The notes beneath the pieces were generated by a model. That model was given only the letters and a program-made list of their open reading frames with translations. It did not search any database and was not told the origin of the DNA. A stretch of 23,892 bases of DNA from a virus. Of the stretch, positions 1 through 23,892 are shown piece after piece; the first letter of the stretch is position 1; each line of letters opens with the position of its first letter. The DNA is taken from IMG/VR virus record IMGVR_UViG_3300034112_001280, positions 1 through 23,892 of that record. The stretch is one strand, 5' to 3'. The position numbers and the translations under genes are program-made.

Positions 1-822
1 CTTAACCTTTGATAAACTAATTTGCAATTGATCCTCTGTTACTGATTTACCACTGATAAACTTTTTAACATTGGCAACGTAATCATCTGGTTTACCTTTT
101 AAATTCTGCTCTATTTCATTTCTCAATTCTGCCTTTACATCACTGCCTGAATCTAACCATGCTTTTATTTGTTTGCCAGTTTCTTGAGTGATCTTAAAAA
201 TCTTGTCAACAAATAAACCTGTTCTATCTTTACTCGTCTGCGCCTCATGGTTCATGGCTACATCAAACACCACAGATAATTCATATTCCATACCCTCGCG
301 TTGTACAGGAGCTAATCCAATTTTTTGTGGCGCAGTTTTGCCTTTACCATTATCAGATAAAACGTAATCCTGTTTTGATCTAATCGCAGCGATTAAATGA
401 ATATCGGATTGGAGCAATGCTGAAATAAATTTTTCTTGTTCAGGTGTAAATTTACTCCAAGAAGTGAAAGAATTGCCGCCGCGCGCATCTACTTGGTTTT
501 TTCTATCTAATATGCCGCCCTCACCATTCCAAGCATGAGATATTGAATCGATAATTAAAACATCATATCCAGCTTTAACAGCATCATTGATTGCCTCTAT
601 ATATTTTTCAGTTGTAAATGGAGCTCGCAATTCCATTGCATCAAATTCAAACCGATCACTATACAGAGATGCGCTGCCATTTTCAGTGTCGATAACAGCA
701 ATTTTACCGCCTAATCCAGTGGCAATTTCCAATGCTGAATAGGTTTTACCCGATCCAGATGGCCCTGTAATACCTAGCTTAATTTTTACTTTTTTACGTT
801 GTGCCTTTTTAAACATGCTCAT
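1..822 (-). CDS. Sak4-like RecA-fold ATPase (phage recombination), 3' end cut by window
   Basis: The frame is open from the ATG at 822 to the window edge (274 codons, no stop), so the C-terminus is missing. The start is set by a GGAGGG ribosome binding site five bases upstream. A Walker A motif GPSGSGKT is at residues 20-27, followed by a DTEN strand end (45-48) and a Walker B strand DVLIIDS at 87-93. This is the pattern of small phage RecA-like ATPases of the Sak4/AAA_24 type, which work with a phage single-strand binding protein in strand annealing and replication-linked recombination. Residues 150-175 are basic and polar and could be a DNA loop. It is the first gene after the lysis genes and the only gene here with a nucleic-acid metabolism role besides the methyltransferase and terminase. 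Family assignment is good; the exact role is inferred. Confidence 0.8.
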   Translation of the reverse strand, partial: MSMFKKAQRKKVKIKLGITGPSGSGKTYSALEIATGLGGKIAVIDTENGSASLYSDRFEFDAMELRAPFTTEKYIEAINDAVKAGYDVLIIDSISHAWNGEGGILDRKNQVDARGGNSFTSWSKFTPEQEKFISALLQSDIHLIAAIRSKQDYVLSDNGKGKTAPQKIGLAPVQREGMEYELSVVFDVAMNHEAQTSKDRTGLFVDKIFKITQETGKQIKAWLDSGSDVKAELRNEIEQNLKGKPDDYVANVKKFISGKSVTEDQLQISLSKVK

Positions 823-854
823 TAAAACCCTCCAATAATTATTAAGATTGGTTA

Positions 855-881
855 ATAATATGTTTTGATTGCGATTGTAAA
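855..881 (-). promoter_or_regulatory. possible promoter upstream of the Sak4-like gene
   Basis: The 86-base gap at 823-908 is the largest non-coding stretch. Read on the minus strand it holds TTTACA (876-881) and TATTAT (855-860), with a 15-base spacer that is shorter than the usual 17. The region is very AT-rich, so such matches are common by chance. It is the only gap large enough for a separate promoter for the recombination gene. Confidence 0.25.
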
Positions 882-908: not shown

Positions 909-1193
909 TTACTTAAAACAATCAACATCTGGTAATGATTTTTTGATTTGAGTTTTACTCGCGCCAGCGTTTTGTAATATTTTAACCAGCTCGCAGACTT
1001 TATTTTTATGCATGCATGAGAAATCATTAAATGCTGGTTCAAAGCACGTTATTACTTCATTTCTTTCATTAACGATTGACTCTTGCAGACTGTCGCCAAC
1101 ATGCCAGTCTGGATCAAATTTAATTGCTCTGTCGCATTTTGCAGAGATTAATAGAGGCAGTAAAATAAATATTCTAAGTACGGAATACATCAT
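909..1193 (-). CDS. small exported cysteine-containing protein in lysis region (possible outer spanin-like)
   Basis: This 94-residue protein has a clear export signal: Arg7, then a hydrophobic core at residues 8-17 and a plausible cleavage after Ala18. Cys20 lies just beyond, but the residue before it is Lys, so it is not a canonical lipobox. The mature part has four more cysteines (50, 60, 67, 92), suggesting a disulfide-bonded periplasmic protein. It begins inside the end of the preceding gene (20-base overlap), with tandem ATG codons and GAGG seven bases upstream. Last place in a lysis cassette and overlap with a small membrane protein resemble spanin pairs, but it is not proline-rich like Rz1. 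I do not recognise a family; the lysis role is inferred from position. Confidence 0.65.
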   Translation of the reverse strand: MMYSVLRIFILLPLLISAKCDRAIKFDPDWHVGDSLQESIVNERNEVITCFEPAFNDFSCMHKNKVCELVKILQNAGASKTQIKKSLPDVDCFK

Positions 1194-1374
1194 TTAACTG
1201 CCTCGCTGCCTCTGCTCTATTTGGATTTGCAAATGCGTTTCCAATCTTTGTTATTTTATCTCTCAAGATTTTTTCTTCAATACCACGCTCTGCCATGACA
1301 TAAATACCTTTTAGCAGAGAGTAAACCTCTGGTAAAAACTTCCAAAGAAATTTTAGAAACACCCAAAAAGTCAT
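1174..1374 (-). CDS. small membrane-associated protein of lysis region, function unknown
   Basis: A 66-residue protein with a hydrophobic, aromatic-rich N-terminal stretch (residues 1-26, rich in Trp, Phe and Leu with interspersed Lys), then a charged helical part rich in Arg, Lys and Glu. Its ATG overlaps the stop of the upstream holin candidate as TAATG, so translation is probably coupled; the ribosome binding site itself is weak. The layout, an N-terminal membrane segment followed by a short charged helix next to an exported small protein, would fit an inner-membrane spanin partner or a holin accessory protein. The hydrophobic stretch is broken by lysines, so it could instead be an amphipathic helix. 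No family is recognised. Confidence 0.6.
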   Translation of the reverse strand: MTFWVFLKFLWKFLPEVYSLLKGIYVMAERGIEEKILRDKITKIGNAFANPNRAEAARQLNDVFRT

Positions 1375-1652
1375 TATACTTTTTTCTGTGGCAATTTAAG
1401 TGAACCAAACCAGTCAAGCAAATAACTAACTGTTTTGTAAATTTTAGAATCTAAAACTTTATTAAAAAATTCATCGTCTGATTTACTTGGCGTTGCCATA
1501 ACATAAGCTTGGACAAATGACATTACTGGTTTAACAAAAAACCTTAGCATGCCGATAATTGTGAATACTGAAATAACCCATGAGTAATTTACGCCCAAGC
1601 TAGACAATGCTGGTTCTAATAATGTTTTAACCCATTCCAATGTTTGTTCCAT
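1374..1652 (-). CDS. holin candidate (small membrane protein beside endolysin)
   Basis: A 92-residue protein whose ATG follows AGGAG closely. One strong hydrophobic segment spans about residues 24-38 and a second, weaker one about 39-52. After these comes a charged region with a TPSKSDDE motif (residues 54-61) of a kind I know from small phage membrane proteins encoded beside endolysins. The C-terminus is basic (KLPQKKV). It lies directly downstream of the M15-type endolysin gene, the usual place for a holin, which would form the inner-membrane lesion that releases the enzyme. The holin role rests on size, hydrophobicity and position, not on a recognised holin family. Confidence 0.6.
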   Translation of the reverse strand: MEQTLEWVKTLLEPALSSLGVNYSWVISVFTIIGMLRFFVKPVMSFVQAYVMATPSKSDDEFFNKVLDSKIYKTVSYLLDWFGSLKLPQKKV

Positions 1653-1664
1653 GATTTTCTCCTT

Positions 1665-2048
1665 TTAAAAAAATCTGTTAATGTTTGCATCTCGTCTTAT
1701 TTGACAATGAATATGATCACCTTGACCATTAAAATTATGATATACGGCCACTCTAACAATCGAATCTTTACCGATTGCGCCAATATCTAAAAACTCTCCG
1801 TTTAATAAAAAGCATAATTTTTCAATGTGGACGTTTGACCAACCATGCGTAGAAATATCAAACGCTCTACCTTCCTCATGCGTCCTGCTGGTTGATTGTG
1901 TATTTTTTCTGTCGGAAATTAATGAAGTAATCAGACAATTTAAATTATATTCAAGGCAAAAAAGATAAACGCGACAATAGACTAATAAGGTGCCTGTCTG
2001 CCATTTTTGAATATCAGATAATTTACAATCATCTTTTAATTCAAACAT
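1665..2048 (-). CDS. endolysin, M15-type zinc peptidase
   Basis: This 127-residue protein carries the zinc-site pattern of M15/VanY-like peptidases that cut peptidoglycan cross-links: RTHEEGRAFDIS at residues 55-66 gives His57 and Asp64 in the H-x6-D spacing, and GDHIHCQ at 110-116 supplies the C-terminal His (His112 or His114). There is no signal peptide, as expected for a cytoplasmic endolysin that leaves through a holin. At 127 residues it is a lone catalytic domain with no cell-wall binding module. It has five cysteines (8, 25, 31, 38, 79) besides Cys115, unusual for such a small enzyme. Its start overlaps the stop of the preceding virion gene as TAATG. The next gene is the holin candidate, so this is the head of the lysis cassette. 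Confidence 0.82.
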   Translation of the reverse strand: MFELKDDCKLSDIQKWQTGTLLVYCRVYLFCLEYNLNCLITSLISDRKNTQSTSRTHEEGRAFDISTHGWSNVHIEKLCFLLNGEFLDIGAIGKDSIVRVAVYHNFNGQGDHIHCQIRRDANINRFF

Positions 2049-2930: not shown

Positions 2931-5336
2931 TTAGAATAATAGATATGGCGCGCCGCTGTCACCTGAAAAACCAATTAAGTCTACATAATGTGTTACGCCA
3001 GCATTAAACGGCATGGGATCCACTGTGTTGATTTTTAATCCAACAATCGATAATACCTTGGTCTGGAAATCATCGGAGTAATTTAATGTTCTAATCCTGA
3101 CCGATGTTCCTTCAAAGAATTTTGCAACATCGCCTGCACCAACATTAAACCCTGCGGCATCGCCGCCTGCAGTGCAGATCACTTGAGGATTTAAATAGCA
3201 GTGAACCGCTTTCCAATATTGCATGCGGTTTGCACTGTCATTGTATTGCGGCGTTTCGATTATATAACCAGTAATGGGCGGCGTTGCTATTGCTGTTGAT
3301 AATGTTATTTTGTATGGATCAACCGATTGAATGCGCGATGTTTGGACGCTGGACCAATCAGTGTTCCTTATTATTATTTCCTGCCCAATGTATTCTTCCC
3401 ACTGCTCATATTCGACTCTATCGCCTGTCCAAGGTCCATCGGTTATGTTTATAACTGTTGTGGTGCTGCCCGATCCGATTAACGAACTAGGGGAAACAAC
3501 ACCGTAACGGCCATCAAGGGAATAACTTGAATCTGTTAATTCTAAATTTATATCGCCAGTTTTTAGGTTCATTGATTTATTCGTTACCTCATAAATCCTA
3601 ACGCCTAAATCTCTGGTCCCTTGCTTAGTGTTCGCTAGACTTAAATCGGTTGAATCTAAAATGATCGCGTCGCCAATATCGACAGGATAACCGATATAAA
3701 ATTGTGTTGAGATATTTATTATTTCTGCGCCTAATTTGAATCTGTCTAAAAATCTTGCGCCAGTATTCTCGATTGCCTGATTGGTTGCCACGTTGTTTCT
3801 GGCACCATCACTTTCAATGGTTAAAACTTTATTTCCAACCTTTACCCTTGTAGTTGATTCGCTTGATTGGATAATTGTTGCTTTTAAAAATTTATCTAAT
3901 TGAGCATCTTTTTCATATTTATAAACAACAGCATTATAAAATTTCTGATTAGTTGACCTTTTATTTTTTATGTTGCCAGCGTTTTTTATGTTCTCTTTCG
4001 ATATGTTTCTGGTCCCAAGTATTGCTAATGGCGGCGATGAATAACCAATGCCAATCCTGCCTTTGCGTGGAATTGAATAAATCCCACTTGGGAAAAATAC
4101 TTGAGCATCTAAAAAAGCCTTAGTTTCGATTGTCTCGGATAAATAGAAATCATAATCAATAAATGAGCTGGAAAAATAATTTTCCAATTCTTGAAATCTT
4201 TCTATGTCGATATGGTATGGTTTAATGCCGCAACCAAATTGGAATTTATCATACTTGGAAACAAAACTTGCTATTGCCGCCGTAGTTGTTTCTATAACAA
4301 GCGGCGCTGCGGTTATAATATATTGACCTAATGACCACTCTCCAAACCCTGTTATTACTTCACTGGTCACATTGTTAGCGCCATTGGTTGCACCAGTTAT
4401 TGATATTTTGTCACCAATCACTAATCCGTTGTCATCTTGGATATTAGATTCAAAAAATATAGCGCCAGCAATTGTGTCTACTCCATTTTCATCAACAAAT
4501 CTATTTACTGATTTTGTGCCAAATGCGCCCAATGGAGAAATTAATAATTCAAGTGATAGATTAATTGGATCGCCTTGCACCCTATAGAGCGTTTCAACTG
4601 TTGCCTCATCGTCGTGAGATGCTGCAATTGTTCCCAATTGACCGCGAGTGCAACCGTTTAAGTTTGTTCCTGATATGCTACCAACCTTAATTATTTCATC
4701 GTCTATTTTTACAAATAATTCTAGTGTGTGATGATCTTGGAAAATACCATTAGCAGATTCAACAGGTATGGTTGATTGCGAATTATTAATAGCTGCTGTT
4801 GTTTGTGTTGTTATCGCCTGTAATATTTCCTGTCTGGTTAGCTGTTGAGGGTGTGCAATGTTTAATTGCACGTTGCCTGCGCCATATGTGATTGCGTCTA
4901 TGATGCCTAGAAAAACCTCGCTGGCATCGCGTGGAAATATGCCGCCGTTAGGCATAAAGTAAACTTTCGCCTCTCTGCCTAAAATATCCTGCTCATTACT
5001 TGGAAATGAAAATTCATCAACTAATTCGGCGTTTTTATCAACCAAATTAATCATAAAATTTGTAATTGAATTACCTTCACTGCGATCTATTTCAACGCTT
5101 TGACTAATATTATTTGTTGTGCCATTGAATTGAATATAATCGCGGCTATTTTCATCTGCTATGCCGCCGCCTATTTTTGTTCCATCGCCTATTATATAAT
5201 CGCCAATTCTTGCAAATCGGACAATATCAATTGTCCCAAAACGCAAGCCAATACCTTCAATCTCAAGGATAATATTTGGTTCTATTACTCCTGATTTTAA
5301 AATTGATTCTGCTTGTATGCTTAAACTTAAGGCCAT
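2931..5336 (-). CDS. tail hub / central tail tip protein
   Basis: At 801 residues this is the second largest candidate tail protein and has the features of phage tail hub proteins. The N-terminal ~160 residues form a barrel-like region ending in an EVFLGIIDAITY strand. Residues 190-250 hold a small inserted domain with the phage-typical LNGCTRGQLGT...H motif. The segment around 480-630 carries the hub signature of a Y.IGYPVDIGDAI turn followed by RIYEVTN and a TGDINLELTDSSY strand. The last ~170 residues are an added beta-rich domain. It lies downstream of the tape measure, distal tail and fibre genes, as expected for the tip where fibres attach. Start: ATG beside the stop of the previous gene, with a weak AGAAG site. 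Confidence 0.75.
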   Translation of the reverse strand: MALSLSIQAESILKSGVIEPNIILEIEGIGLRFGTIDIVRFARIGDYIIGDGTKIGGGIADENSRDYIQFNGTTNNISQSVEIDRSEGNSITNFMINLVDKNAELVDEFSFPSNEQDILGREAKVYFMPNGGIFPRDASEVFLGIIDAITYGAGNVQLNIAHPQQLTRQEILQAITTQTTAAINNSQSTIPVESANGIFQDHHTLELFVKIDDEIIKVGSISGTNLNGCTRGQLGTIAASHDDEATVETLYRVQGDPINLSLELLISPLGAFGTKSVNRFVDENGVDTIAGAIFFESNIQDDNGLVIGDKISITGATNGANNVTSEVITGFGEWSLGQYIITAAPLVIETTTAAIASFVSKYDKFQFGCGIKPYHIDIERFQELENYFSSSFIDYDFYLSETIETKAFLDAQVFFPSGIYSIPRKGRIGIGYSSPPLAILGTRNISKENIKNAGNIKNKRSTNQKFYNAVVYKYEKDAQLDKFLKATIIQSSESTTRVKVGNKVLTIESDGARNNVATNQAIENTGARFLDRFKLGAEIINISTQFYIGYPVDIGDAIILDSTDLSLANTKQGTRDLGVRIYEVTNKSMNLKTGDINLELTDSSYSLDGRYGVVSPSSLIGSGSTTTVINITDGPWTGDRVEYEQWEEYIGQEIIIRNTDWSSVQTSRIQSVDPYKITLSTAIATPPITGYIIETPQYNDSANRMQYWKAVHCYLNPQVICTAGGDAAGFNVGAGDVAKFFEGTSVRIRTLNYSDDFQTKVLSIVGLKINTVDPMPFNAGVTHYVDLIGFSGDSGAPYLLF

Positions 5337-5549: not shown

Positions 5550-5598
5550 GGTTCTCCTGATATTGAGTGCATTGTAACCTTGAATCAAAAAGTTTCAT
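5542..5598 (-). pseudogene. micro-frame carrying a remnant of the fibre gene's 3' end
   Basis: After the fibre-like gene stops, TAGGAG is followed by ATG at 5598 and an 18-codon frame that ends inside the start of the next gene. Its product contains FDSRLQCTQY, which matches FDVRLECTQY, the last ten residues of the fibre-like protein, at eight of ten positions. The fibre copy then has TAG, where this copy has CAG and reads on. It looks like the decayed tail end of a second fibre allele. It may still be translated as a leader for the downstream gene, since a ribosome binding site is present. Confidence 0.55.
5554..5589 (-). repeat. direct repeat, degenerate copy of fibre gene 3' end
   Basis: A 36-base segment matching 5603-5638 at about 27 of 36 positions when read in the same direction. 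An 18-base core (5554-5571 against 5603-5620) matches at 16 positions, including TGCACTCAATA and the AGGAG site. Differences in the outer part are largely codon changes with the encoded residues kept (AGA CTA against AGG TTA), which implies it once coded for protein. Confidence 0.75.
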
Positions 5599-5602
5599 AA
5601 GG

Positions 5603-5638
5603 CTCCTAGTATTGAGTGCACTCTAGTCTAACATCAAA
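5603..5638 (-). repeat. direct repeat, intact copy at the end of the fibre gene
   Basis: This is the partner of 5554-5589. It encodes the last ten residues of the fibre-like protein, its TAG stop and the following AGGAG. The two copies are offset by 49 bases. Confidence 0.75.
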
Positions 5639-7999
5639 CGATGTGCAGTTAGTGGCATTATGGTCAACACAAAAAATACTCATCGAAGTAGTAGATGTAA
5701 ATGTGAAGTTGAGCATAGCTGCCGAGTTATTACTCGCGGTTACTGAGTTTCCACAACTAATTCTAGATGCGTCCGTGAAATTCCCAGATGGGATGGTTAT
5801 CGCGCAAGATCCTCCTGAGATATTCCCGATTGTCGCCGTACCCGTGAAGGTCTGATTTACGATTGACGAACTCGCGTCACAATTTATACTTGCAAAATAT
5901 GTTTTTGAATTTGAAGTATTCGGCGCAGAAACTTTATCGCCTAAGGCTGCAATCATTTCACTTGTCGCTGGCTCCATTGAAATAGAAACTGCGCTTCCAT
6001 TATTTGCCGTACTAGCTAGGGCAACACACGAATTCGCGCTTGCTGCCATATCTATAGCTTGCAATTTCCATTCAACGCTTGCTTGATCGCTGGTGTATTC
6101 TACGATCTCTGAATAGCCATCAATCGCTGTCACATAAGTAGCTGCATGACCATTTTGAGCAATGACCGGCCCAACTATATTCGTTCCGTCGAATAGCCTG
6201 AATCCGCATTGAGTAATTTGCTCTGCATATAAAGAGCCTCCAAAACTAACTCGATATTTTCCTTTCTTAACCTTGCCAGTCTTTAAAGCAAATGCCCCTG
6301 TTGTGGTTGGAGTGACTACATTTCCAATTTTTGTAGCAGATGCGAAAGTGCAATCGGCGGCATCCACTAAGTCCTCGTAGCTGCCATTGCTGGTTCCATC
6401 GGAACAATTTGCCACGTTATACCATTTGATGCCGAATGTTCCTTCTAGATTGTCATTCAGAACTTGATCCTGCTCGATATAAGTAGCAGTCATATTAAGA
6501 ATTGCATTATTGGCATTATTTGCTAAGTCTTGAAATAATCTGATTGTTATAAAATCATCGCGCCCTAATTCACACTCAAATGCAGCTAGGAGAGTTGATT
6601 CATATCCGCTAGTCGGATGAGAGGATGAATTTCCGCAAGTCGCTGCGGCTGAAAAACTCCCTTCTGCAATGCTGTCGTAAATTGTTATAGACTGAGAGGT
6701 CGTTGAATCGCTTGGCTCTAACGACATCACTCCTTTCAAAAAACATTTCGCCCTGTTGCAAATGAATTTCGTTCTAGTCCCAGAAGAATTATCCAGAGTG
6801 ATGACATCATCTCCGGTGCTAGTAAAATTTGCAGTGTTGAATTCTAATTCGTTTGTTCTGTCGGTTAGTGTGCTATTTGCAGCAGTATGCCTTAAATGCT
6901 CAGTATAAATTTTTGTGATTGCTTGAGTTTTTAGATTTCTGATAAAGCAAGAATCGACATAGACATCATCAGTTGTCCCCGAATCGGAAGTGATTCGCAC
7001 ACAAGCCTTACCGGACGCCGGAACAATCATTGAATTTTTAATCTCAAGCCATTCGTTTGCTGCGTTAGGCTTATAATCAGTGCAATTATCTCCTGAACCT
7101 GAATCATTTGAAGCGCAAAGATTAATTAATTCCGAAGTGGTTTTCATCATACAACCGACTTCAAAGTTATTCCCTTCAAATTCAGTGTTGGTTACACAAT
7201 ATTCAGCGTCATAAGTTGCAGAAACAGAGGCATCAATCTTGGCAACATTTAAACCATTAGGTTCATAATTTGGAGATGTGGCAATTGCGCAAGTTTGGTT
7301 TGCGTGGTTACAAGTGAAATTCAAAGCATTTTCAAAACCGCCATCGGATAAAAAATTTTCTCCTCCTCCACCAGCAGGAGCCGTCCAAGACAAAACTCCA
7401 GTTCCATCATTTTTTAATATCTGATTTGTTCCGCCTTGAGCAGGAGGCATTGTCAGTGTGTAACTTGTAGTTGTCCCGTCTGCCTTAATTCCAATGTATT
7501 GACCGCCTGTAGTGTCCTGTAATCGTAATTCATTTTGTGATTTAATATTCAATTGGCCATCAAGGGATAGAACATTTGTGCCAAAATCATAGGCAAATGC
7601 TGCCTCTCCGCTGCCACTGCCTGCGCCTTGAGAAACAATAACCTCTCCGCTTGATGCGCTATTTATAAATGAGCTAGGCGCAGCGATCCAACTAGAAACG
7701 CCAGCGCCATCGGTCGAAAGTAAATATCCTGCCGTGCCATCATTATCTGGTAATGTTAACGTCCAAGATGGACTAACAGTCGCAGGGGATTTTATGCCGA
7801 CATACTGACCGCCTGCTAAATCCTCTAGTTTTAAAACGTAATTTGACTCTATGTTAATATCTTTTTTAGATATTGTTTTTGTGTTTGGGTTTAACTCTAT
7901 TTCGCTAGGCGATGAAATTACTCTATTATTTTGATTTAATTGCGCAAATCCATCAACCGAAATAAGCAAAAAAGAGATTATTAAAATTAACTTTATCAT
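5606..7999 (-). CDS. exported, cysteine-rich fibre-like protein with Sec signal peptide
   Basis: The start is taken at the ATG at 7999, which overlaps the previous stop as ATGA and follows AAGGA; a start nine codons earlier would have no site and would spoil the signal peptide. The first 19 residues are a textbook signal: Lys3, hydrophobic core 4-15, cleavage after GFA. Two repeats follow (about 48-104 and 150-205), each with GGQY(V/I)GIK, a TLT(L/M)P strand and a DG.GV.SW end. From about 215 there is a carbohydrate-binding-module-like beta sandwich, then two jelly-roll-like stretches (about 370-520 and 525-700) and a C-terminal domain ending in ECTQY. I count 22 cysteines, none before residue ~220. 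Length and position say tail fibre; signal and cysteines say periplasm or cell surface. Confidence 0.75.
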   Translation of the reverse strand: MIKLILIISFLLISVDGFAQLNQNNRVISSPSEIELNPNTKTISKKDINIESNYVLKLEDLAGGQYVGIKSPATVSPSWTLTLPDNDGTAGYLLSTDGAGVSSWIAAPSSFINSASSGEVIVSQGAGSGSGEAAFAYDFGTNVLSLDGQLNIKSQNELRLQDTTGGQYIGIKADGTTTSYTLTMPPAQGGTNQILKNDGTGVLSWTAPAGGGGENFLSDGGFENALNFTCNHANQTCAIATSPNYEPNGLNVAKIDASVSATYDAEYCVTNTEFEGNNFEVGCMMKTTSELINLCASNDSGSGDNCTDYKPNAANEWLEIKNSMIVPASGKACVRITSDSGTTDDVYVDSCFIRNLKTQAITKIYTEHLRHTAANSTLTDRTNELEFNTANFTSTGDDVITLDNSSGTRTKFICNRAKCFLKGVMSLEPSDSTTSQSITIYDSIAEGSFSAAATCGNSSSHPTSGYESTLLAAFECELGRDDFITIRLFQDLANNANNAILNMTATYIEQDQVLNDNLEGTFGIKWYNVANCSDGTSNGSYEDLVDAADCTFASATKIGNVVTPTTTGAFALKTGKVKKGKYRVSFGGSLYAEQITQCGFRLFDGTNIVGPVIAQNGHAATYVTAIDGYSEIVEYTSDQASVEWKLQAIDMAASANSCVALASTANNGSAVSISMEPATSEMIAALGDKVSAPNTSNSKTYFASINCDASSSIVNQTFTGTATIGNISGGSCAITIPSGNFTDASRISCGNSVTASNNSAAMLNFTFTSTTSMSIFCVDHNATNCTSFDVRLECTQY

Positions 8000-8490
8000 G
8001 CAACATTCCTTCTTAGTTCTATCCATCTCTCAAGCGATGAATCATAAATCAATTCAATAATATGATATTTTTTTATTAACATTGTCCCGTTTAAAATTGC
8101 ACCGTACTGCTCGTCTGCGTTGTTAATAGTGATTGTGTTAGTGTCACTGTTGCCTACTAACAAAATAACCGTTCCGTGTAACCAACCGCCAGCAGCGCCA
8201 AATAATTTATTTGCAAGGGTTACTGCGCCGCCTGTACTTTCTATTTTTCTGTACTGCCAACCTTGGACGGTTGATGTTGTAACATTTCCTGCCGCTGCTA
8301 ATTGTTCAAGCGAATAAGTAGTAGGCCTCACTCCGTTAATCGATGCCTGCAAATTAGTAACAACAGGTCCACTAGCAGGAGCAGCATTATTCAGTGTGTA
8401 AATCGATGTAACTGTGCTGTTTACCGACTTGCTTGTGAAGGCCGAATTAAAAACACTGGCATCGGCTCTTTGTCCATCTGCAACACTCAT
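7996..8490 (-). CDS. small tail fibre-like virion protein
   Basis: A 164-residue protein whose N-terminus, ADGQRADASVFNSAF then SK..NS.T, matches a short segment I know from many phage tail fibre and baseplate-associated proteins, where it probably forms an attachment region. Residues 55-164 are beta-rich, with an NNADEQYGAILNG segment and the ending ELIYDSSLERWIELRR, typical of small jelly-roll tip domains. It starts after AGGTG one base beyond the distal tail gene and ends in an ATGA overlap with the exported fibre-like gene. It may link that protein, or another fibre, to the tail. The function is inferred from motif and position. Confidence 0.65.
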   Translation of the reverse strand: MSVADGQRADASVFNSAFTSKSVNSTVTSIYTLNNAAPASGPVVTNLQASINGVRPTTYSLEQLAAAGNVTTSTVQGWQYRKIESTGGAVTLANKLFGAAGGWLHGTVILLVGNSDTNTITINNADEQYGAILNGTMLIKKYHIIELIYDSSLERWIELRRNVA

Positions 8491-8491
8491 A

Positions 8492-9265
8492 TTAATTCAC
8501 CTTTCTGTAAATGAGCAATCCTGTCTCATAAAATTCACCCAATCCCATGCCCAACATTTCTTTTATTTTATAACCAACACCGTTTTGACTCTGCTGCGTT
8601 TTTTCCAATTGTATAATATGGTATGTCGCTAGGTCACTCTCATCTGGCATAAATTCTATTTGACTTCGAGTGATGCAGAAATCCATAAATGATCTTAATT
8701 CAGACAATGCATTAGTGTTTTTTCTAATAATAGATGAATCAAATTCAACATGGTTGTTTACATATTTTAGATTAAATTCAAACCTTGATATTTTACCAAC
8801 GGAATAAATTTCAATTGATCCGCTTGATGATTCGTTTACAGTGCTTTGTATATATTCAGAATTATCACTAGCACTGACAAAATCCTGTAATCTAACTTGG
8901 GGAGAATAAATTGTTCCTGTCGCGTTGTTACTTGTATAGGTATTTGTCCCTGTTACATCTGCGCCAGTAAAACCAATCAAGGTAAAAACTGATTCGCCTG
9001 CATTTGCTCCAGATGTAATCAATAGGGAAAAATTTGCCGCTGCCGATATAGTAAATGTTCTATTAGTCCTATTAACTGAAACAGTGTAATCCTGACCGCC
9101 GATGGCGTTTAATGCCCTTGAAACTTCACTAGCTAATTGAGTAAATGAATATTTGCCAGGGCGTAATTCTGCTGTTATCTCGCCAGCGCCTTCATTAAAA
9201 TTAAGATAAAATCCGTCTGCTGGGACAGTGTAACCGTAAAGGAATTTTGACCATGTATAAATCAT
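8492..9265 (-). CDS. distal tail protein candidate
   Basis: A 257-residue protein whose start overlaps the tape measure stop as ATGA, the usual place for the distal tail protein that caps the tube below the tape measure. The N-terminal half has the pattern FNEGAGEITAELRPGKYSF and YTVSVNRTNRTFTIS, which I recognise from a family of phage tail proteins found directly after tape measure genes. The middle holds a PQVRLQDFV strand. The C-terminal half (about 150-257) starts with a long beta strand and ends with a helical part around FMDFC. It is judged structural with good confidence; the exact position in the tail tip is inferred. Confidence 0.65.
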   Translation of the reverse strand: MIYTWSKFLYGYTVPADGFYLNFNEGAGEITAELRPGKYSFTQLASEVSRALNAIGGQDYTVSVNRTNRTFTISAAANFSLLITSGANAGESVFTLIGFTGADVTGTNTYTSNNATGTIYSPQVRLQDFVSASDNSEYIQSTVNESSSGSIEIYSVGKISRFEFNLKYVNNHVEFDSSIIRKNTNALSELRSFMDFCITRSQIEFMPDESDLATYHIIQLEKTQQSQNGVGYKIKEMLGMGLGEFYETGLLIYRKVN

Positions 9266-10989
9266 ATAGCGCCAAATATTTTAATATTATTGTTCAATGA
9301 TGCGTCTTTAATTATTTTAGAAATCCTTAAACCTGTTTCCTCACTGTCAAACACATCGCCCATTATATTAACACTAACCTTTGTTTCTGGTTCTATTCGC
9401 TGTTGATCAAGGAGATCATTAGTAGCAGCAGGAGTAAAAGAGTTAGGGCCTCCAATTGCTGCTCCTGCATCACTACCTCCGCCGCCGCCAGAAAATGATT
9501 TCATAATTGTTCCGAATGCAATTAATCCTGCGCCTGCAGCAATCGCAGCAGCGCCGCCTAATGAGTGTAGTGCATCAATGCCCATACCTGACATTAATAA
9601 AGTCATACCTAACTGCGTCGCCATATCACCCAGCATGCCAGCAATTGATTTGCCAAAATTCTCAAATCCTTTTTCGCCTAACACTAATGATTTTGTTAAT
9701 GCCTCAACACCCATAGCAGCGGATTTTGCTAGCGTTTGACTGATTGCTGAATTGATCGCCTGCGCTCTTGCTGCTCTTTTATCTTGATCCAATCTCTCGG
9801 CATTGGCCTGCTCAAATTGTGATGTTCCTTTAATGCCTGCGAGTGTTGCTTGGTGCTGTTGCTCTAATGTTTGCATGCGAGCGTTAAATTCTTGCTGCCC
9901 GATAAATTCCTGTTCTTGCTGCAGTTTTTTCATATCCTGCTGGAATTGAGCATTGGCAATTTGCGTTTGATCTAATCCAATATTTCCAAGCTTAGACAAT
10001 GATGCCGCTGTTTCTTCCTTGCTTGGGCCTGTTGGAATTTTACCAGCAGGGATAGCATTGGCATTTGTAGCAAGGTTAATAACTTCTTGATTTATTTTTT
10101 CTAATTGCTCTCTGGCGCTCTTTAATGAAATTTGATCTGTTAAAACGCCAAATATTGCGCCTAACCCCTTTGATGGATTTTCTATTGTGCCTTTAACTAA
10201 TTTAATTACGTCTGCCGTTGTGCTAATTGATGTTTTTACGGCATCTGATTCTGTTATTGTTTTGCCGATTGCTTTTTGTAAATCCTCATAACTGGACGTT
10301 AAATCATTTATGGATTTATCGTAATCGGTTAGATTTTTCTGCGCCCTGCCATCAAATTGTGTTGAGATTATTTCCAATGCTCGCGCTAGTGCTTGAGATT
10401 TTGGAATGGTCTCGTCAATGGTTATGCCGTACTTTCTAAATGCTTTATTAAAAGGTTCAACGCCGCCACTGGCAACGCGAGCGATAATATCAGACGCTTG
10501 ATCAAATGAGATTTGCATTCCTGCTGCAAGATCGGCAGCGCCTCTAATAGCGCGCTGTAACCCTTGAGAATCTAAATTTGCCAGTGATTGTATTAATGCA
10601 GCATTTTTTAAAATTACTTTATCGTCAATGCCTGCCAATACTTCTAATTCATCGGCGAGCATTTGTATTGATCTTAGCGCCTGCATTGACCCTGCGCGTG
10701 TTCCCTCTAATGCTGCTGTTAAAATCTTTGTTGCCTGCTCTGATTCTACAAATTCGGCAACCGACTCTCTCGCAACATTCTTGATTGAACTAACGGCGCT
10801 CCTGACCAAATCTGCGCCTAATTGTCCTAACCCTGCACCTGTTGAAATCCGCGCAATGTCTAATAGTGAGCTAGAAAATGATGCGCCAAAATTTTGACCA
10901 GCATCTTTACCAACAGTGGTTAATCTTTTTTTTAATGCTGTTTCAGATGCGGCAGTGTCTAGTTCTACGCCTAAAATTAATTCTGCCAT
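9262..10989 (-). CDS. tail tape measure protein
   Basis: At 575 residues this is the long helical, Ala- and Gln-rich protein directly after the tail chaperone pair, which is the standard place for the tape measure. Residues ~110-230 match the conserved tape measure region with ADLAAGMQISFDQASDIIAR and a FNKAFRKYGI segment. A Gln- and Glu-rich coiled coil lies at about 345-410. The C-terminal part is hydrophobic and Gly/Ala-rich (about 440-510), ending in a poly-Gly run (SGGGGGSD), as expected for a protein that contacts the host membrane on ejection. At about 0.15 nm per residue the tail would be near 85 nm. The ATG lies 13 bases inside the end of the chaperone extension. Confidence 0.88.
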   Translation of the reverse strand: MAELILGVELDTAASETALKKRLTTVGKDAGQNFGASFSSSLLDIARISTGAGLGQLGADLVRSAVSSIKNVARESVAEFVESEQATKILTAALEGTRAGSMQALRSIQMLADELEVLAGIDDKVILKNAALIQSLANLDSQGLQRAIRGAADLAAGMQISFDQASDIIARVASGGVEPFNKAFRKYGITIDETIPKSQALARALEIISTQFDGRAQKNLTDYDKSINDLTSSYEDLQKAIGKTITESDAVKTSISTTADVIKLVKGTIENPSKGLGAIFGVLTDQISLKSAREQLEKINQEVINLATNANAIPAGKIPTGPSKEETAASLSKLGNIGLDQTQIANAQFQQDMKKLQQEQEFIGQQEFNARMQTLEQQHQATLAGIKGTSQFEQANAERLDQDKRAARAQAINSAISQTLAKSAAMGVEALTKSLVLGEKGFENFGKSIAGMLGDMATQLGMTLLMSGMGIDALHSLGGAAAIAAGAGLIAFGTIMKSFSGGGGGSDAGAAIGGPNSFTPAATNDLLDQQRIEPETKVSVNIMGDVFDSEETGLRISKIIKDASLNNNIKIFGAI

Positions 10990-14281: not shown

Positions 14282-15430
14282 TTAGCTCCAAGCCATATCT
14301 AAGTGTCCATAGTACGGAGTGTTTGTTGGAGTGTTTGCGCCTGACATTAACAACCAACTCAAACAGGCGCCATCTTCAATTTTTGGGAAACTTGGCATTT
14401 GGTTTACGCAATCTCGTTCTGACCAGACGCCGATTGTTGTCATAGGGATTGTAACGATTGGAACACATAACATCACACTAAATTCGCCAGATAAATAGGA
14501 CGCGCTCAATTGAATTGATTCAACAGATGTAATACCGGAATCACCAGCGGCTAATGGGACAAATGGATTATACTTCCCTGCGCCCGCTCCTGAATAAAGA
14601 ACCGTTCCGTTAGCTGCGCCAGATTTACATGTAGGCAATGTAGCTGGAGTCGCCCTGCTTCCGGTGAATGAAGTATTTGTATATCTAAAATCAAGCGTTG
14701 GAGTTGCTGCGCCCATTGCCGTTGCGTTGGTGTTGTATGCAAATTTTCTAACTCTGTCGCCATTGGTATAACGTGGCAATAAAGTTGTAATATTATGTGT
14801 CCCTGTTCCGGCATCTGTGATGTTTATATATGTTCCTGCCACTGCGTTTGCATACGATGTAGCAAGTCTGCAGGTTGTGTTCGATAAATAAATAACAAAA
14901 TAATCCGTTGCTGTTGCTAATCCTGCTGGCAGTGTCCCAGATGTTGTTAGTCTAACACAGGTATAATTTTTTAATTGATAAAATGCATGGGTGCAAATAT
15001 CTGTTGATGCATCGGCGGTAAATGTGTAGCTGACATTCAATGTATTTGTAAATGATTGCAGCGTTGTGGTTGTTACTGTCGTTACTCGATAAAATCCAAC
15101 CAAATCAACCAACATTAGAACAGCAGGCATTGAGGTTGATGCCCCTGAGCCTGCCGACAAATTGATTAAATATTTATCCATTGGACCAACGTCAGGGCCG
15201 GAATAAATTCCTGTCGCATTGGTTGTTGAATAACTCAACGGTTGAAATGCTAAGTTTGTCCCTGTGTTAGCCACCGAATCCGCGCCAGGCGCGCCTGTCC
15301 CTCTGAATAAATGATGCCATTCCCCTGCGACTGCTGCAGCTGTTGGAAGGAAGTTTTTATTCCAATCTTGACGATGAAATCTGCCGCTAGTAATCGCATT
15401 TGTTAAAGAATCTAAAGATGAAATGGCCAT
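14282..15430 (-). CDS. virion structural protein, paralogue 2, with inserted bead-like domain
   Basis: A 382-residue beta-rich protein that shares an order of motifs with the 285-residue product of the gene just upstream: LPRYTNGDRV (218-227), YNPFVPLAAGDSGI (287-300) and a C-terminal PKIEDGACLSWLL...YGHL. It is longer because residues ~130-215 hold an extra domain with the pattern VRLTTSGTLPAGL, DYFVI, RLATSYANAVAGT and TDAGTGTHN, a module I recognise from many phage surface proteins. The N-terminus (QDWNKNFLPTAAAVAGEWH) matches a known phage virion family. It is probably a fibre or decoration protein, judged by its place after the capsid gene. The start has GAGG seven bases upstream. Confidence 0.7.
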   Translation of the reverse strand: MAISSLDSLTNAITSGRFHRQDWNKNFLPTAAAVAGEWHHLFRGTGAPGADSVANTGTNLAFQPLSYSTTNATGIYSGPDVGPMDKYLINLSAGSGASTSMPAVLMLVDLVGFYRVTTVTTTTLQSFTNTLNVSYTFTADASTDICTHAFYQLKNYTCVRLTTSGTLPAGLATATDYFVIYLSNTTCRLATSYANAVAGTYINITDAGTGTHNITTLLPRYTNGDRVRKFAYNTNATAMGAATPTLDFRYTNTSFTGSRATPATLPTCKSGAANGTVLYSGAGAGKYNPFVPLAAGDSGITSVESIQLSASYLSGEFSVMLCVPIVTIPMTTIGVWSERDCVNQMPSFPKIEDGACLSWLLMSGANTPTNTPYYGHLDMAWS

Positions 15431-15440
15431 AAAAATACCT

Positions 15441-16298
15441 CTATATAAATACCGTTTTTAATTCGCCTATAAATTGGTTACCCGAAACACTTCCAACAGG
15501 AAGGCATAAAAAATTCAAATATGCATCGTCTTTTATTTCCGGCACTAATGATTTATCTACAAGAAAATCAATTTCGCTAAATGCTGTTATCTCGTATGTG
15601 CTTTGTGATGAAATAACTTTTACTAATACCAGCGCAAAAAGTCCAATATCAACGCCGTTCATCGTAACAGATTCTATTTTTCGCACGCCTTTGTCGCCAT
15701 CTTGCAGCGGTATAAATGGCCCGTAGCTATTTGGATCATTGTTAGTTGTATGGCTATTAATAATATTCCCAGTAACAGATGCAGTGTTTTGTAAAGTCAA
15801 TTTAGAAACTCTGCCTGTAACTCCGTCGCTGTTGGTATATTTAACCGTAAAAGTTTGGCCGCCTGTTCTAGCGCCTAACGATACCGCCATCATGTTAACG
15901 CCAAATCCGTCTGGATACCTTGGCAATGGTATTGACGTAGTTAACATTTGCTCGTCAGTCGTTGACTCATCAATGAAGGAATAGAACATTAAATAATCGC
16001 ACAAAATCCAGCTGGACGGGTGATAGTTTGCACTGCCTCCGTAAATACTAATTTGCCTCAAATATTTTTTACTAGGTGAAACATTCCCACCGTTAAAAAT
16101 TCCTTTATTTACTGAATAACTTAAAGCAGTGGCGTTTAATGGTATGGCCGCATAATATTGAGCGGACGGATAGCCAGGCGACATAGATGTATCAAACCAA
16201 GTTCTTGATGCAGATGCTTGATTGGGTAATTTTCGGAATGAGGTATAAATAACCTTCCCCGATAATTCCGCATCAACTAAGTCACCTGTAACAATCAT
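15441..16298 (-). CDS. virion structural protein, paralogue 1 (no inserted domain)
   Basis: A 285-residue beta-rich protein. It shares with the neighbouring 382-residue protein the segments LPRYPDGFGV (125-134), FTVKYTNSDG (150-159), YGPFIPLQDGDKGV (192-205) and PEIKDDAYLNFLC near the C-terminus. It lacks the extra ~85-residue domain found in that paralogue. The pair probably arose by tandem duplication. The start overlaps the stop of a 27-codon microgene as TAATG, with AAGGA further upstream, so translation is likely coupled. A virion surface role (decoration or fibre base) is inferred from composition, the family pattern and position between capsid and connector genes. Confidence 0.68.
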   Translation of the reverse strand: MIVTGDLVDAELSGKVIYTSFRKLPNQASASRTWFDTSMSPGYPSAQYYAAIPLNATALSYSVNKGIFNGGNVSPSKKYLRQISIYGGSANYHPSSWILCDYLMFYSFIDESTTDEQMLTTSIPLPRYPDGFGVNMMAVSLGARTGGQTFTVKYTNSDGVTGRVSKLTLQNTASVTGNIINSHTTNNDPNSYGPFIPLQDGDKGVRKIESVTMNGVDIGLFALVLVKVISSQSTYEITAFSEIDFLVDKSLVPEIKDDAYLNFLCLPVGSVSGNQFIGELKTVFI

Positions 16299-20139: not shown

Positions 20140-21687
20140 TTATTCCTCTATATCGTCCTGCTCCATTTCTTTATTGATTTTGTCCATTTTACTAACGTCT
20201 GCTTTTTCTTCTATCTCGCCAGTCGCCAGTTTGTTATCGATAATGTTTTGTTGCAGTTTCTTTAATGCATCGGTCCTGCTTATATTTTCTTTTTTTGCAA
20301 TGTAATCGATAATTGAAACTACGTTTTGCGGCAATTGTCTCTCCATTAAATCCCATTCCTCTGTTTCAGTTTTTTCTGATTGTGGTTTTTTAAATGTAAT
20401 TGATAGTTCTGAATCTGCCGGAATAGATGGCGACTTCATTAAATTCAACGTGGCAGTTTTTGATAAATTACCTTGCATCGTTTTAATTAAATGGAATAGA
20501 GCAATTTCAGCATTTGTAAATGTCTCGAAATCATCTTTATTGCTCATTGCTCTGTCTATCATTGAAACTAATCGCTCAAATCCGCTGGCATATGACTCTC
20601 CAGAATTATCAGACGTAATAGCGCCATCAACTGATTGACTCGACAGAAACATAAATAACAATACTTTTAAAAACTCAATTGTGCCGCCAATATCGGCGTT
20701 AGGTGTGGCAAATCCAAAATCTGTTTCGACTCCTGCCTCTTTATCATTAGGTAATTTTAAAACGTAGTTAGGTCCAACCTTTACCGATTGTAGCAATGCC
20801 TCTTTATTGCCTTTATACCATGCCTGCGCAAATCCCTGCATCTTTACAACTTGAGCTGCCTCACTCATGCGAGTGTTAAACTCAACTGTAAAATCAGAAA
20901 AAGGCGATCCTTGTCTAACCCAATATTCGTATTCTTTTACATCTGATATTTCGATAAACGGCAATATGCCTAATTCATTTGAAACATTATCGCCAGAAAC
21001 AATTTCCCCTGCTCCATTGAAAATAAAATTCAACTGCTTGGTCCAAGCAGCATATCTTTTATTTTTCTGTTTTTCTTTCTCTCGCATTTGAGCTGTTTCA
21101 TTATATTGATCTGTCGATTGAGCAGACATTGAAAATGTCCCTGTCGCTGGCGCAGGCCTTTTACCTTGCTCATATGCCTCGTTTGATTTGTCATATGCAG
21201 AGATAATATAACCAGCAGCATTCTCTATATCATTATCGCCCATGATCGGATCATAGTGGTGCGGTTGATAAATCTTTGTTGTCAATTTCCCATTGGCCGG
21301 AACAACTTGCATTAAAATCTGTCTATGCAATTTGTAATATTTCAATGCAGAGCAAACTGCCTTATTAACCCCGATTTCTTGATAAAGCGATTGTAAATCA
21401 TATTCGCTATTGGCAATACGTCTGTCTGGTTGCTCTTGATAGACGATTGAACTTTTATTGATGGCGCGTTTACAGATATTAATTGATTTAACAACAGGCA
21501 TTTCTATAATGGTTTGCTCGTCAAACTGTTTGCGTAATTCAGCATAAACATAATTATCCAAGCGGTCCTTTAATATCTCGCTCTTTTTATATGACTCTGC
21601 TTTACGTCCTTTATTTTCATTTGATTCAATAATCTCGACAATTTTTCTACGGCCTTCAACTGTTAGTAACAAATCTTGATTAATCAT
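20140..21687 (-). CDS. portal protein
   Basis: A 515-residue protein directly after the large terminase gene, with an ATGA overlap, as is standard for phage portals. Residues ~40-140 include LDNYVYAELRKQFDEQTI and an INICKRAINKSSIVYQE helix typical of the wing region. Residues ~225-300 hold a WVRQGSPFSDFTVEFNTRM helix and QGFAQAWYKGN, and ~355-420 an SQSVDGAITSDNSGESYASG segment before a long helix that resembles the portal stem/crown boundary. The C-terminal 60 residues are charged and Gln/Glu-rich. The dodecameric ring would hold the terminase and the connector. Confidence 0.82.
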   Translation of the reverse strand: MINQDLLLTVEGRRKIVEIIESNENKGRKAESYKKSEILKDRLDNYVYAELRKQFDEQTIIEMPVVKSINICKRAINKSSIVYQEQPDRRIANSEYDLQSLYQEIGVNKAVCSALKYYKLHRQILMQVVPANGKLTTKIYQPHHYDPIMGDNDIENAAGYIISAYDKSNEAYEQGKRPAPATGTFSMSAQSTDQYNETAQMREKEKQKNKRYAAWTKQLNFIFNGAGEIVSGDNVSNELGILPFIEISDVKEYEYWVRQGSPFSDFTVEFNTRMSEAAQVVKMQGFAQAWYKGNKEALLQSVKVGPNYVLKLPNDKEAGVETDFGFATPNADIGGTIEFLKVLLFMFLSSQSVDGAITSDNSGESYASGFERLVSMIDRAMSNKDDFETFTNAEIALFHLIKTMQGNLSKTATLNLMKSPSIPADSELSITFKKPQSEKTETEEWDLMERQLPQNVVSIIDYIAKKENISRTDALKKLQQNIIDNKLATGEIEEKADVSKMDKINKEMEQDDIEE

Positions 21688-22949
21688 CGTCTATCCTGCG
21701 GTATATTGTTAAATTCAAAATCTTTTTTCATCGGAAACAATTTCCAAGCAACATAACCTAAACAATCGGAAACGTGAGTTAGCATTGGGTCGCTTGTTTT
21801 ATCTAAATCATCGTCCTTCCAAGAAACTTTATTCAAGTCGCCAATAAGCTTTTTGCATTTAGGATTTATCTTTATCCTGCCTGCGGTAAATAGCCTGTTC
21901 AAATTGTTTACCCTATCCCTGACAAATGGATTATGCGTTGTGATAACTGTAAATCCATTTTCTTTTAAAATCAAATGATCCGACTTCCCTGACGTTTTTC
22001 TATTTTTGCCAGTGCTGTCTGGAATAATAGATGCGCCGCCGTGTGATTCCTTTATTAGGTAATCACTCATTTTATAAGTGTCGCTATTTTCTAACCAAAC
22101 CTCATCGTGAACATGCAATTCATCGCCGATTACTTGGCAGATAACTGCCGTCATTGGATTAACGTTGAAATCCATACCAGCAAATCTGGTGCCGTGAATT
22201 AGTGTTGTGGGTGCAACGTGTTTATCTCTGTCGAATGCATAATAAGCAATGCCATCGTCTGAATCTATGAATTGACCTAGCAAGAAACGCTGCCTTTGTT
22301 TCTCTGGTAATCCTGCCAATAACTTCAAATAATCCTCATCAATATTTTTGATATTATCTTGAGGATTCATAATAATACTTGAGTAATCATCTCTGTTAAC
22401 AGGTTCGCCAGATTCTGGATCAACACCTTGGATAAACAAAGAATAACTCCAATGTTTTTTGGTTGGCGGATTTTCGTCGAAATATGCTTTTTTCTTTAAC
22501 TCATTTTTTTCTGCCAATCTGGTAATTGCTATCTGCACTGATTTATACTTAATCTGTGAACACTCATTGAAATATATAGTTGAATATTCTTTACCTAGAA
22601 TTTTTTCTACTCTTTTTTCATCGTCCAATCCTGCAATCCAAATTTCCGAACCATTGGGATATGTCCAAAAATGATCCGTTTTATTCTCGTCCATTGTTAA
22701 AGTAGGAAAACTTAATTTTTTAACCTTTGGGAATGTGTCATACCAGATGGACGTTTTAACATGGTTGAAATGTTCCCTGACAATTAGATGCCTGGATTTG
22801 ACCTTGGACGCTCTAATCATTATTGCTCTGCACAGATAGAATGTTTTACCTGACCTTGATCCGCCATATGCCATAAAGAATTTTTCAGGACCGCCAAGCA
22901 TGCGCCCCAATTCTTTTTGTTTGTCGGTTAGCTCAAAGATTTGACTCAT
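21684..22949 (-). CDS. terminase large subunit (packaging ATPase and nuclease)
   Basis: A 421-residue protein with both terminase activities. Walker A is GGSRSGKT (29-36), Walker B TIYFNE (124-129), with the motor coupling segment DENPPTKKHW (158-167). The C-terminal nuclease shows Asp260 in GMDFN, Asp311 in IPDST and Asp395 in HVSD, the expected RNase H-like acidic triad. Length and motif spacing fit PBSX-type (Terminase_3-like) large subunits. It overlaps the small terminase gene by 17 bases and the portal gene by four. It would cut concatemers and drive DNA into procapsids through the portal. Confidence 0.92.
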   Translation of the reverse strand: MSQIFELTDKQKELGRMLGGPEKFFMAYGGSRSGKTFYLCRAIMIRASKVKSRHLIVREHFNHVKTSIWYDTFPKVKKLSFPTLTMDENKTDHFWTYPNGSEIWIAGLDDEKRVEKILGKEYSTIYFNECSQIKYKSVQIAITRLAEKNELKKKAYFDENPPTKKHWSYSLFIQGVDPESGEPVNRDDYSSIIMNPQDNIKNIDEDYLKLLAGLPEKQRQRFLLGQFIDSDDGIAYYAFDRDKHVAPTTLIHGTRFAGMDFNVNPMTAVICQVIGDELHVHDEVWLENSDTYKMSDYLIKESHGGASIIPDSTGKNRKTSGKSDHLILKENGFTVITTHNPFVRDRVNNLNRLFTAGRIKINPKCKKLIGDLNKVSWKDDDLDKTSDPMLTHVSDCLGYVAWKLFPMKKDFEFNNIPQDRR

Positions 22950-23351: not shown

Positions 23352-23892
23352 TTAGTCATTAGCTTTTAACTCACTATATTTTTTACCGCTTGATTCTAGC
23401 GTTGCCTCTTTGCCAGTAAAATTCTGCCAGCGATTAATAATCACATCGCAAAATATTGGATCAAGCTCCATTCCATAAAATTTAATGTTATTTTTTTCAC
23501 AGGCCATCAATGAAGAACCAGAACCTGAAAAGAAATCAATCATTGATTTAACTTCTTTCTTTGATTTTTCAATGGACCACTCACACAAAGAGACTGGCTT
23601 TTGAGTCGGGTGAACCCTGTTTATTTTCTCAGAAGCCTGTGTAAATTGCCTAACAACCGATCTGAAATTTGTCCACGCCAGCTCACAGTCAGTTTGGTCG
23701 CTTCCGCCATTATTCTTATCCCAAACGAGCCAGCATTCACTGTCTGGTAATCCGCTCGAGTAATAATTAGCACCCCACCAAACATGTGCAGAGTTTGGAT
23801 ATAGAGAAATCGCTAAATTAAAACAATCCTTGGCCGATTGATTAGAACTGTCGCCTATAATATCTGTCTTGTAATTTTTCGACAATACACCT
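23352..23892 (-). CDS. beta-class DNA methyltransferase, 5' end cut by window
   Basis: The frame is open to the right edge, so the N-terminus is missing; the TTG at 23885 is only the first candidate codon inside the window. The visible first residues (GV just before [11 protein letters not shown]) would follow a DPPYGV-type catalytic motif lying just outside. Counting from the TTG, the visible part has VWDKNNGG (54-61), HPTQKP (92-97), the SAM-binding motif I DFFSGSGS (117-124) and GMELDP (138-143), and the family ending FTGKEA (156-161). Catalytic motif before SAM motif is the beta-class order, usual for adenine-N6 or cytosine-N4 enzymes. Phages often carry such genes beside the terminase, sometimes fused to ParB-like nucleases. 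Target base is not known. Confidence 0.88.

Follow-up and report, generated by a model that had tools for sequence, protein, structure and literature searches.

The product of gene P0001 (797 aa, start codon ATG 7999) is interpreted, at even confidence, as one half of a tail fibre made in two parts, namely the exported, distal half that binds the receptor; it would fold outside the cytoplasm and attach to the virion once the cell has lysed. The gene lies in the window, i.e. the whole stretch of DNA analysed here (an IMG/VR virus record of 23,892 bases, itself a fragment), whose genes include a terminase (Pfam PF04466, 1e-18), a major head protein and scaffold, and a tail operon. The interpretation draws on a signal peptide, a fibre split over two genes, the recurrence of this arrangement in relatives, the pairing of anchor and fibre types, and domain homology. 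The proximal half (anchor and C-terminal cap, 7996-8490) would be made and built into the tail inside the cytoplasm. The distal half would be exported by the Sec pathway, cleaved after GFA and folded outside the cytoplasm, probably as a trimer, with its disulfides formed there. At lysis it would meet the new virions, its mature N-terminus docking on the anchor cap, and its CBM16-like and TNF/C1q-like domains would then bind the surface glycans of the next host. No earlier case in which an exported fibre docks on a tailed virion once the cell has lysed was found in the literature, and none is known to us. A word search of open papers returned no report of a tail fibre bearing a signal peptide in a tailed phage. 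The features concerned are the following; relatives are given by their handles (G and L numbers).

8492..9265 (-): conserved tail protein, 257 aa, upstream marker of the fibre slot (31-40% identity in seven relatives).
8007..8011 (-): Shine-Dalgarno sequence AAGGA for ATG 7999, 7 nt upstream of the start.
7996..8490 (-): fibre anchor/cap gene, 164 aa, no cysteine, related to the anchors of G022, G007, L224, G031 and L239.
5606..7999 (-): gene P0001, candidate Sec-targeted, 22-cysteine distal fibre protein (open frame, Shine-Dalgarno sequence AAGGA, signal peptide, domain matches).
7943..7999 (-): signal peptide of P0001, residues 1-19, MIKLILIISFLLISVDGFA^QLNQ, signal peptidase I type (rule-based score 4.86; conserved feature in the slot of relatives).
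7364..7942 (-): mature N-terminus and fibre-shaft repeats, residues 20-212, cysteine-free (from the sequence).
6941..7360 (-): CBM16-like beta-sandwich, residues 214-353 (relatives' profile without the window, iE 9.6e-8).
6470..6913 (-): beta-rich cysteine region, residues 363-510 (no domain match found).
6038..6430 (-): TNF/C1q-like domain, residues 524-654 (profile without the window, iE 7.5e-8).
5609..5902 (-): C-terminal cysteine-rich domain, residues 700-797 (weak likeness to the C-terminal domain of other slot fibres by hhalign, probability 13%, E 0.002).
2931..5336 (-): conserved tail hub-like protein of ~800 aa, downstream marker of the slot (30-37% identity in relatives).

The signal peptide and the 22 cysteines, which the initial annotation had placed past residue ~220, were both confirmed. 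The signal peptide has an n-region with a lysine, a clean hydrophobic stretch and the cleavage site GFA^Q (…SVDGFA^QLNQ). The cysteines are at residues 230, 237, 268, 283, 295, 306, 333, 351, 414, 419, 455, 476, 532, 550, 598, 658, 707, 732, 749, 777, 785 and 794. Neither a lipobox nor a membrane anchor was seen in P0001, the first cysteine being residue 230. A true start downstream of the signal region had been named as the case that would overturn the annotation. A start bypassing the signal is very unlikely, because ATG 7999 is preceded by a Shine-Dalgarno sequence and neither the earlier in-frame ATG at 8026 nor the TTG at residue 11 has one; the first ~130 codons contain no further in-frame start. 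Shine-Dalgarno sequences were present in 20 of the 25 window genes, against a chance expectation of 8.6%. ATG 7999 and the upstream gene (7996-8490) share a 4-base ATGA overlap.

No family was found for P0001 in PHROGs, Pfam or NCBIfam, and a single-protein search of viral contigs, phages and plasmids returned no close relative. Domain profiles were made from relatives with the window left out and searched against P0001, and AlphaFold2 models of two domains were built from small alignments. The model of residues 206-363 (pLDDT 72) was matched by Foldseek to CBM16 (2zew, E 2.2e-7, TM 0.64). That of the TNF-like domain (pLDDT 71) gave as first match 8okw, the C-terminal domain of Bd2734 (E 3.3e-9, TM 0.69/0.79), with C1q and TNF proteins next in rank. 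Bdellovibrio bacteriovorus has 21 secreted fibres, and Bd2734, a MAT (mosaic adhesive trimer) fibre, is one of them (Caulton et al. 2024, PMC10769870). The homology to its tip was also detected by sequence (profile A7, E 1.6e-21; L219 alone, 9.5e-15; L212 alone, 3.3e-11); the window protein also matches 8okw directly (E 0.019), and in this alignment its Cys 532, 550 and 598 fall on cysteines. The guess of CBM-like and jelly-roll-like domains made from the letters alone was therefore a good one, and the presence in P0001 of glycan-binding-type folds, CBM16-like and TNF/C1q-like, is well supported by sequence evidence, recurrence and these models. The shaft contains, beyond residues 20-55, two copies of the motif L.L.D..GGQY.GIK...LT.P...G....L..DG.G..SW. 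Residues 62-210 match a cyanophage protein, and the shaft region also matches the slot fibres of G022 and G007.

The slot was then compared between phages. The window terminase is common to 79 loci. Eighteen whole or nearly whole relative records were read, their gene orders were compared and their signal peptides were scanned. Signal-bearing slot fibres were found in a first survey in G031 (628 aa), G022 (1136 aa), G014 (552 aa), G040 (494 aa) and G018 (323 aa), and also in G007 and G028, where both are cut by contig ends. Use of the hub protein of another branch as query added L202, L206, L212, L216, L219, L223, L224 and L225, and L219 used as query added L238 and L237. Besides the window, this makes 16 signal-bearing fibres in the equivalent tail-operon slot of related uncultured phages and one in the podovirus L237. 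Signal peptides were graded by a simple rule-based score of our own, with the line set at >=3.3. This score was reached by 16 of the 18 signal-bearing fibres, the other two falling just under the line (3.24 and 2.99), and by 2 of 270 other open reading frames of at least 200 aa in these phages, both probable lipoproteins. The signal is not universal in the slot, since G015, G025, G035 and others lack it. In G015, which has no exported fibre, a lipoprotein of 224 aa with 12 cysteines occupies the slot (L089 11908-12582).

In the signal-bearing phages a short anchor gene (127-289 aa; 617 aa in G031) lies as a rule directly upstream of the fibre gene, and the two share the ATGA overlap in the window, G018, L202, L206, L216, L225 and L237. 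In the signal-less G025, G017, L210 and L220, anchor and fibre form one chain. Profiles of the separate anchors match the N-termini of these single-chain fibres (iE 5e-18 in L220, 1e-15 in L210, 2e-12 in G025 and 9e-10 in G017). In G028 the anchor domain sits behind the signal peptide in the fibre chain (iE 6e-8). The shafts of exported fibres match tail-fibre families (phrog_16641, 1.8e-11 in G018). BppL_N was considered as the anchor and rejected, the Pfam matches in some relatives corresponding to a short shaft motif. P0001 itself starts with the signal peptide and has no virion-anchor domain at its N-terminus, the anchor being the gene at 7996-8490. Its gene sits in the tail operon between the homologues of the conserved tail genes 8492-9265 and 2931-5336. 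The window anchor gave no profile match to the N-terminus of the single-chain fibre G035, though the two are alike by eye; for this reason we infer the split in the window from the one seen directly in its relatives. This comparative anatomy favours a tail fibre split over two genes, in which the anchor would be encoded by the upstream gene and the distal half by the P0001 gene.

Anchors can be grouped by the cap at their C-terminus, and the exported fibres, compared by mature N-terminus, form matching groups. The first cap family comprises G014, G040, L219, L237 and L238, and the second G018, L202, L206, L216 and L225; in both, the fibre N-termini match. The third comprises the window, G022 and G007, and the N-terminus of the window's fibre matches this group weakly. 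L237 is a temperate podovirus with an integrase and internal virion proteins, and is unrelated to the other carriers. Its anchor has a T7-type tail-fibre N-terminus (residues 1-127; phrog_1640, 1.6e-35) and a cap (residues 224-376) 54-58% identical to those of G040, L219 and L238, and the exported fibre directly after this cap has 61% identity to the L219 fibre. From this anatomy, cap and exported fibre were transferred together between virions that are unrelated, and the joint lies within the anchor gene. Co-transfer of this kind would be expected of a docking interface; simple linkage could also produce it and explains less. The adjacent anchor and fibre genes may also be co-inherited without physical contact between their products. 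The L237 integrase gene is at 9572-10462, so that L237 may be integrated in the genome of a host as a prophage.

Two options were offered in the initial annotation: a phage protein that is exported and then shown by the infected cell or released from it, and a fibre with periplasmic maturation. Export targeting and glycan-type folds both stood, and between the two options the comparative anatomy favours the fibre maturing in the periplasm. Display or release is the main rival and is rather unlikely. The exported fibre would then stay on the infected cell or leave it, block the receptor of competing phages or alter host adhesion, and its gene would lie beside tail genes because it derives from, or was swapped into, a fibre gene. 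The signal peptide of P0001 is a classical one, and a protein binding the receptor of its own phage would be a natural superinfection blocker; the carrier L237 has an integrase. Several MAT fibres of B. bacteriovorus, of the same tip family, have been shown on the surface of the predator (PMC10769870). Against display, the fibre always comes directly after an anchor that has no tip, and the cap and fibre types match and travel together, which display does not require. Moreover, no lipobox or membrane anchor was seen in P0001, and expression from the late tail operon would be late for exclusion.

The cysteines give a less regular picture of the exported half. Their number is even in 12 of the 13 mature exported fibres (p 0.0017; the proteins are related and not independent), and they are denser in exported than in signal-less slot fibres (Mann-Whitney, p 0.005). 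A shaft motif, P-C-P.MT..QRDA...GDCVYN, has its cysteine pair in five exported fibres and lacks it in three ordinary phage homologues. The idea that cysteines mark the exported form held for this difference in density and failed as a strict rule, which was dropped because of L239, L206, L223 and L224. On the 78.8-kb phage contig L239, gene 5554-7419 encodes the same cysteine-rich MAT-type tips, 51-56% identical to those of exported fibres, with 14 cysteines and no signal peptide; L206, L223 and L224 have the signal and 0-2 cysteines only. Export is thus not needed to make such a tip, as L239 bears one without a signal. The L239 fibre gene lies directly after a gene with a window-type cap at its C-terminus.

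That a tip relative works without a signal peptide also bears on a second rival, in which the N-terminal hydrophobic segment would be a plug buried in the anchor and the fibre would be assembled in the cytoplasm without export. Hydrophobic docking of this kind would account for the split as well. This rival is judged quite improbable, as all the segments show the n-h-c pattern with cleavage sites of the A-x-A or G-x-A type, mostly followed by Q, and this pattern is kept on chains whose mature N-termini differ. The high cysteine load also argues against it, and a Sec signal would be engaged by default.

The tip family being that of MAT fibres, a Bdellovibrio-like predator may be the host of the virus; this stays no more than a lead, because no prophage or genome link was found. 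None of the best 80 terminase matches in genome contigs was in Bdellovibrionota. These matches are as a rule alike over about the first 230 residues, at <=53% identity for the best. INPHARED contained no close relative of the window terminase, major capsid, tail hub or 8492-9265 proteins. The tip was absent from 399 Pseudomonadota genomes, the same profile finding it in four phage records, and 241 genomes of Lentisphaerota, the phylum of L135, gave one marginal partial match. Lipoprotein-like genes near the slot of relatives suggest a diderm host. A Bacteroidota host, hinted at by the FA^Q sites, was considered less likely given the Shine-Dalgarno sites of the window genes, the frequency of such sites being an argument against this phylum.

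Least likely of all, by a little, is that P0001 is a captured MAT-type adhesin serving a predatory host, i.e. a moron with no virion role: the tip homology to Bd2734, the 0/399 count in Pseudomonadota and the signal peptides of MATs are in line with it, and the shaft and context, which are those of a phage fibre, and the presence of the tip on the signal-less phage fibre L239 speak against it.

Other loci of the window were also noted. The terminase gene (21684-22949) has many relatives in bacterial genomes (loci L121-L200) and some in phages that match about its first 230-257 residues only, as if the ATPase half had a history separate from that of the nuclease half, or the nuclease half had diverged. 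Region 909-2048 (-) resembles a lysis cassette when read by eye, with no Pfam match: 1665-2048 resembles a small M15-type peptidase (HEEGRAFDIS...GDHIH), 1374-1652 is holin-like, and two overlapping small genes ending at 909 are spanin-pair-like, the last (94 aa) having a signal sequence and 5 mature cysteines. Near the head genes, 14282-15430 and 15441-16298 have ~30% mutual identity and look like a tandemly duplicated gene for a decoration- or fibre-like protein. The window edges hold an incomplete N6/N4 DNA methylase gene (23352-23885; PF01555, 8.3e-13) and an incomplete ATPase-like gene with a P-loop (1-861 (-); GITGPSGSGKT).

With somewhat less confidence than for P0001 alone, the two-part fibre may be extended to many uncultured tailed phages and an unrelated podovirus: Sec-exported, oxidised tips would snap onto a capped stub after lysis, and tips would have passed between these phages and the fibres by which Bdellovibrio-like predators recognise prey. 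In the textbook view the tails of tailed phages are built entirely in the cytoplasm, an environment in which disulfides are not formed. If the extension is true, virion assembly would have a second stage, outside the cytoplasm, allowing disulfide-rich tips. If display is true instead, the coating of infected cells with the phage's own receptor-binding tips would be widespread. The phage fibres are also tied to the secreted prey-recognition fibres of Bdellovibrio, whose attachment to the cell surface remains unexplained.

Among known systems, the small superinfection-exclusion lipoproteins Llp and Cor have a lipobox cysteine at the cleavage site, whereas P0001 has 797 aa and the predicted cleavage site GFA^Q. 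The pIII protein of filamentous phages, a component of the virion, has a signal peptide and disulfides and reaches maturity outside the cytoplasm. P0001 would resemble it in this scheme; the virus types are unrelated, filamentous phages being assembled at the membrane and tailed ones in the cytoplasm. CBM16 (2ZEW) and residues 206-363 of P0001 are alike in predicted fold, with 12-15% identity and extra cysteines in P0001. The MAT fibres of B. bacteriovorus (Bd2734, PDB 8OKW) are alike in signal peptide (residues 1-19 of P0001, from the start with a Shine-Dalgarno sequence), fibre-like shaft and adhesive TNF-like tip (the Bd2734-type domain at 524-654). P0001 differs in being encoded on an IMG/VR record, downstream of a fibre anchor in the tail operon of a phage and not by a predatory bacterium, and in having several tip-type domains per chain. 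In MATs a conserved beta-rich domain of ~130 aa comes immediately behind the signal peptide; in P0001 residues 20-55 have no assignment and shaft repeats come next. Ordinary tail fibres (G025, G035, L218 and L220; PF03906/phrog_1640) share the slot, anchor domains, shaft families and tips; they are one cytoplasmic chain without a signal, whereas the tip half of the P0001 type is a separate, Sec-targeted chain.
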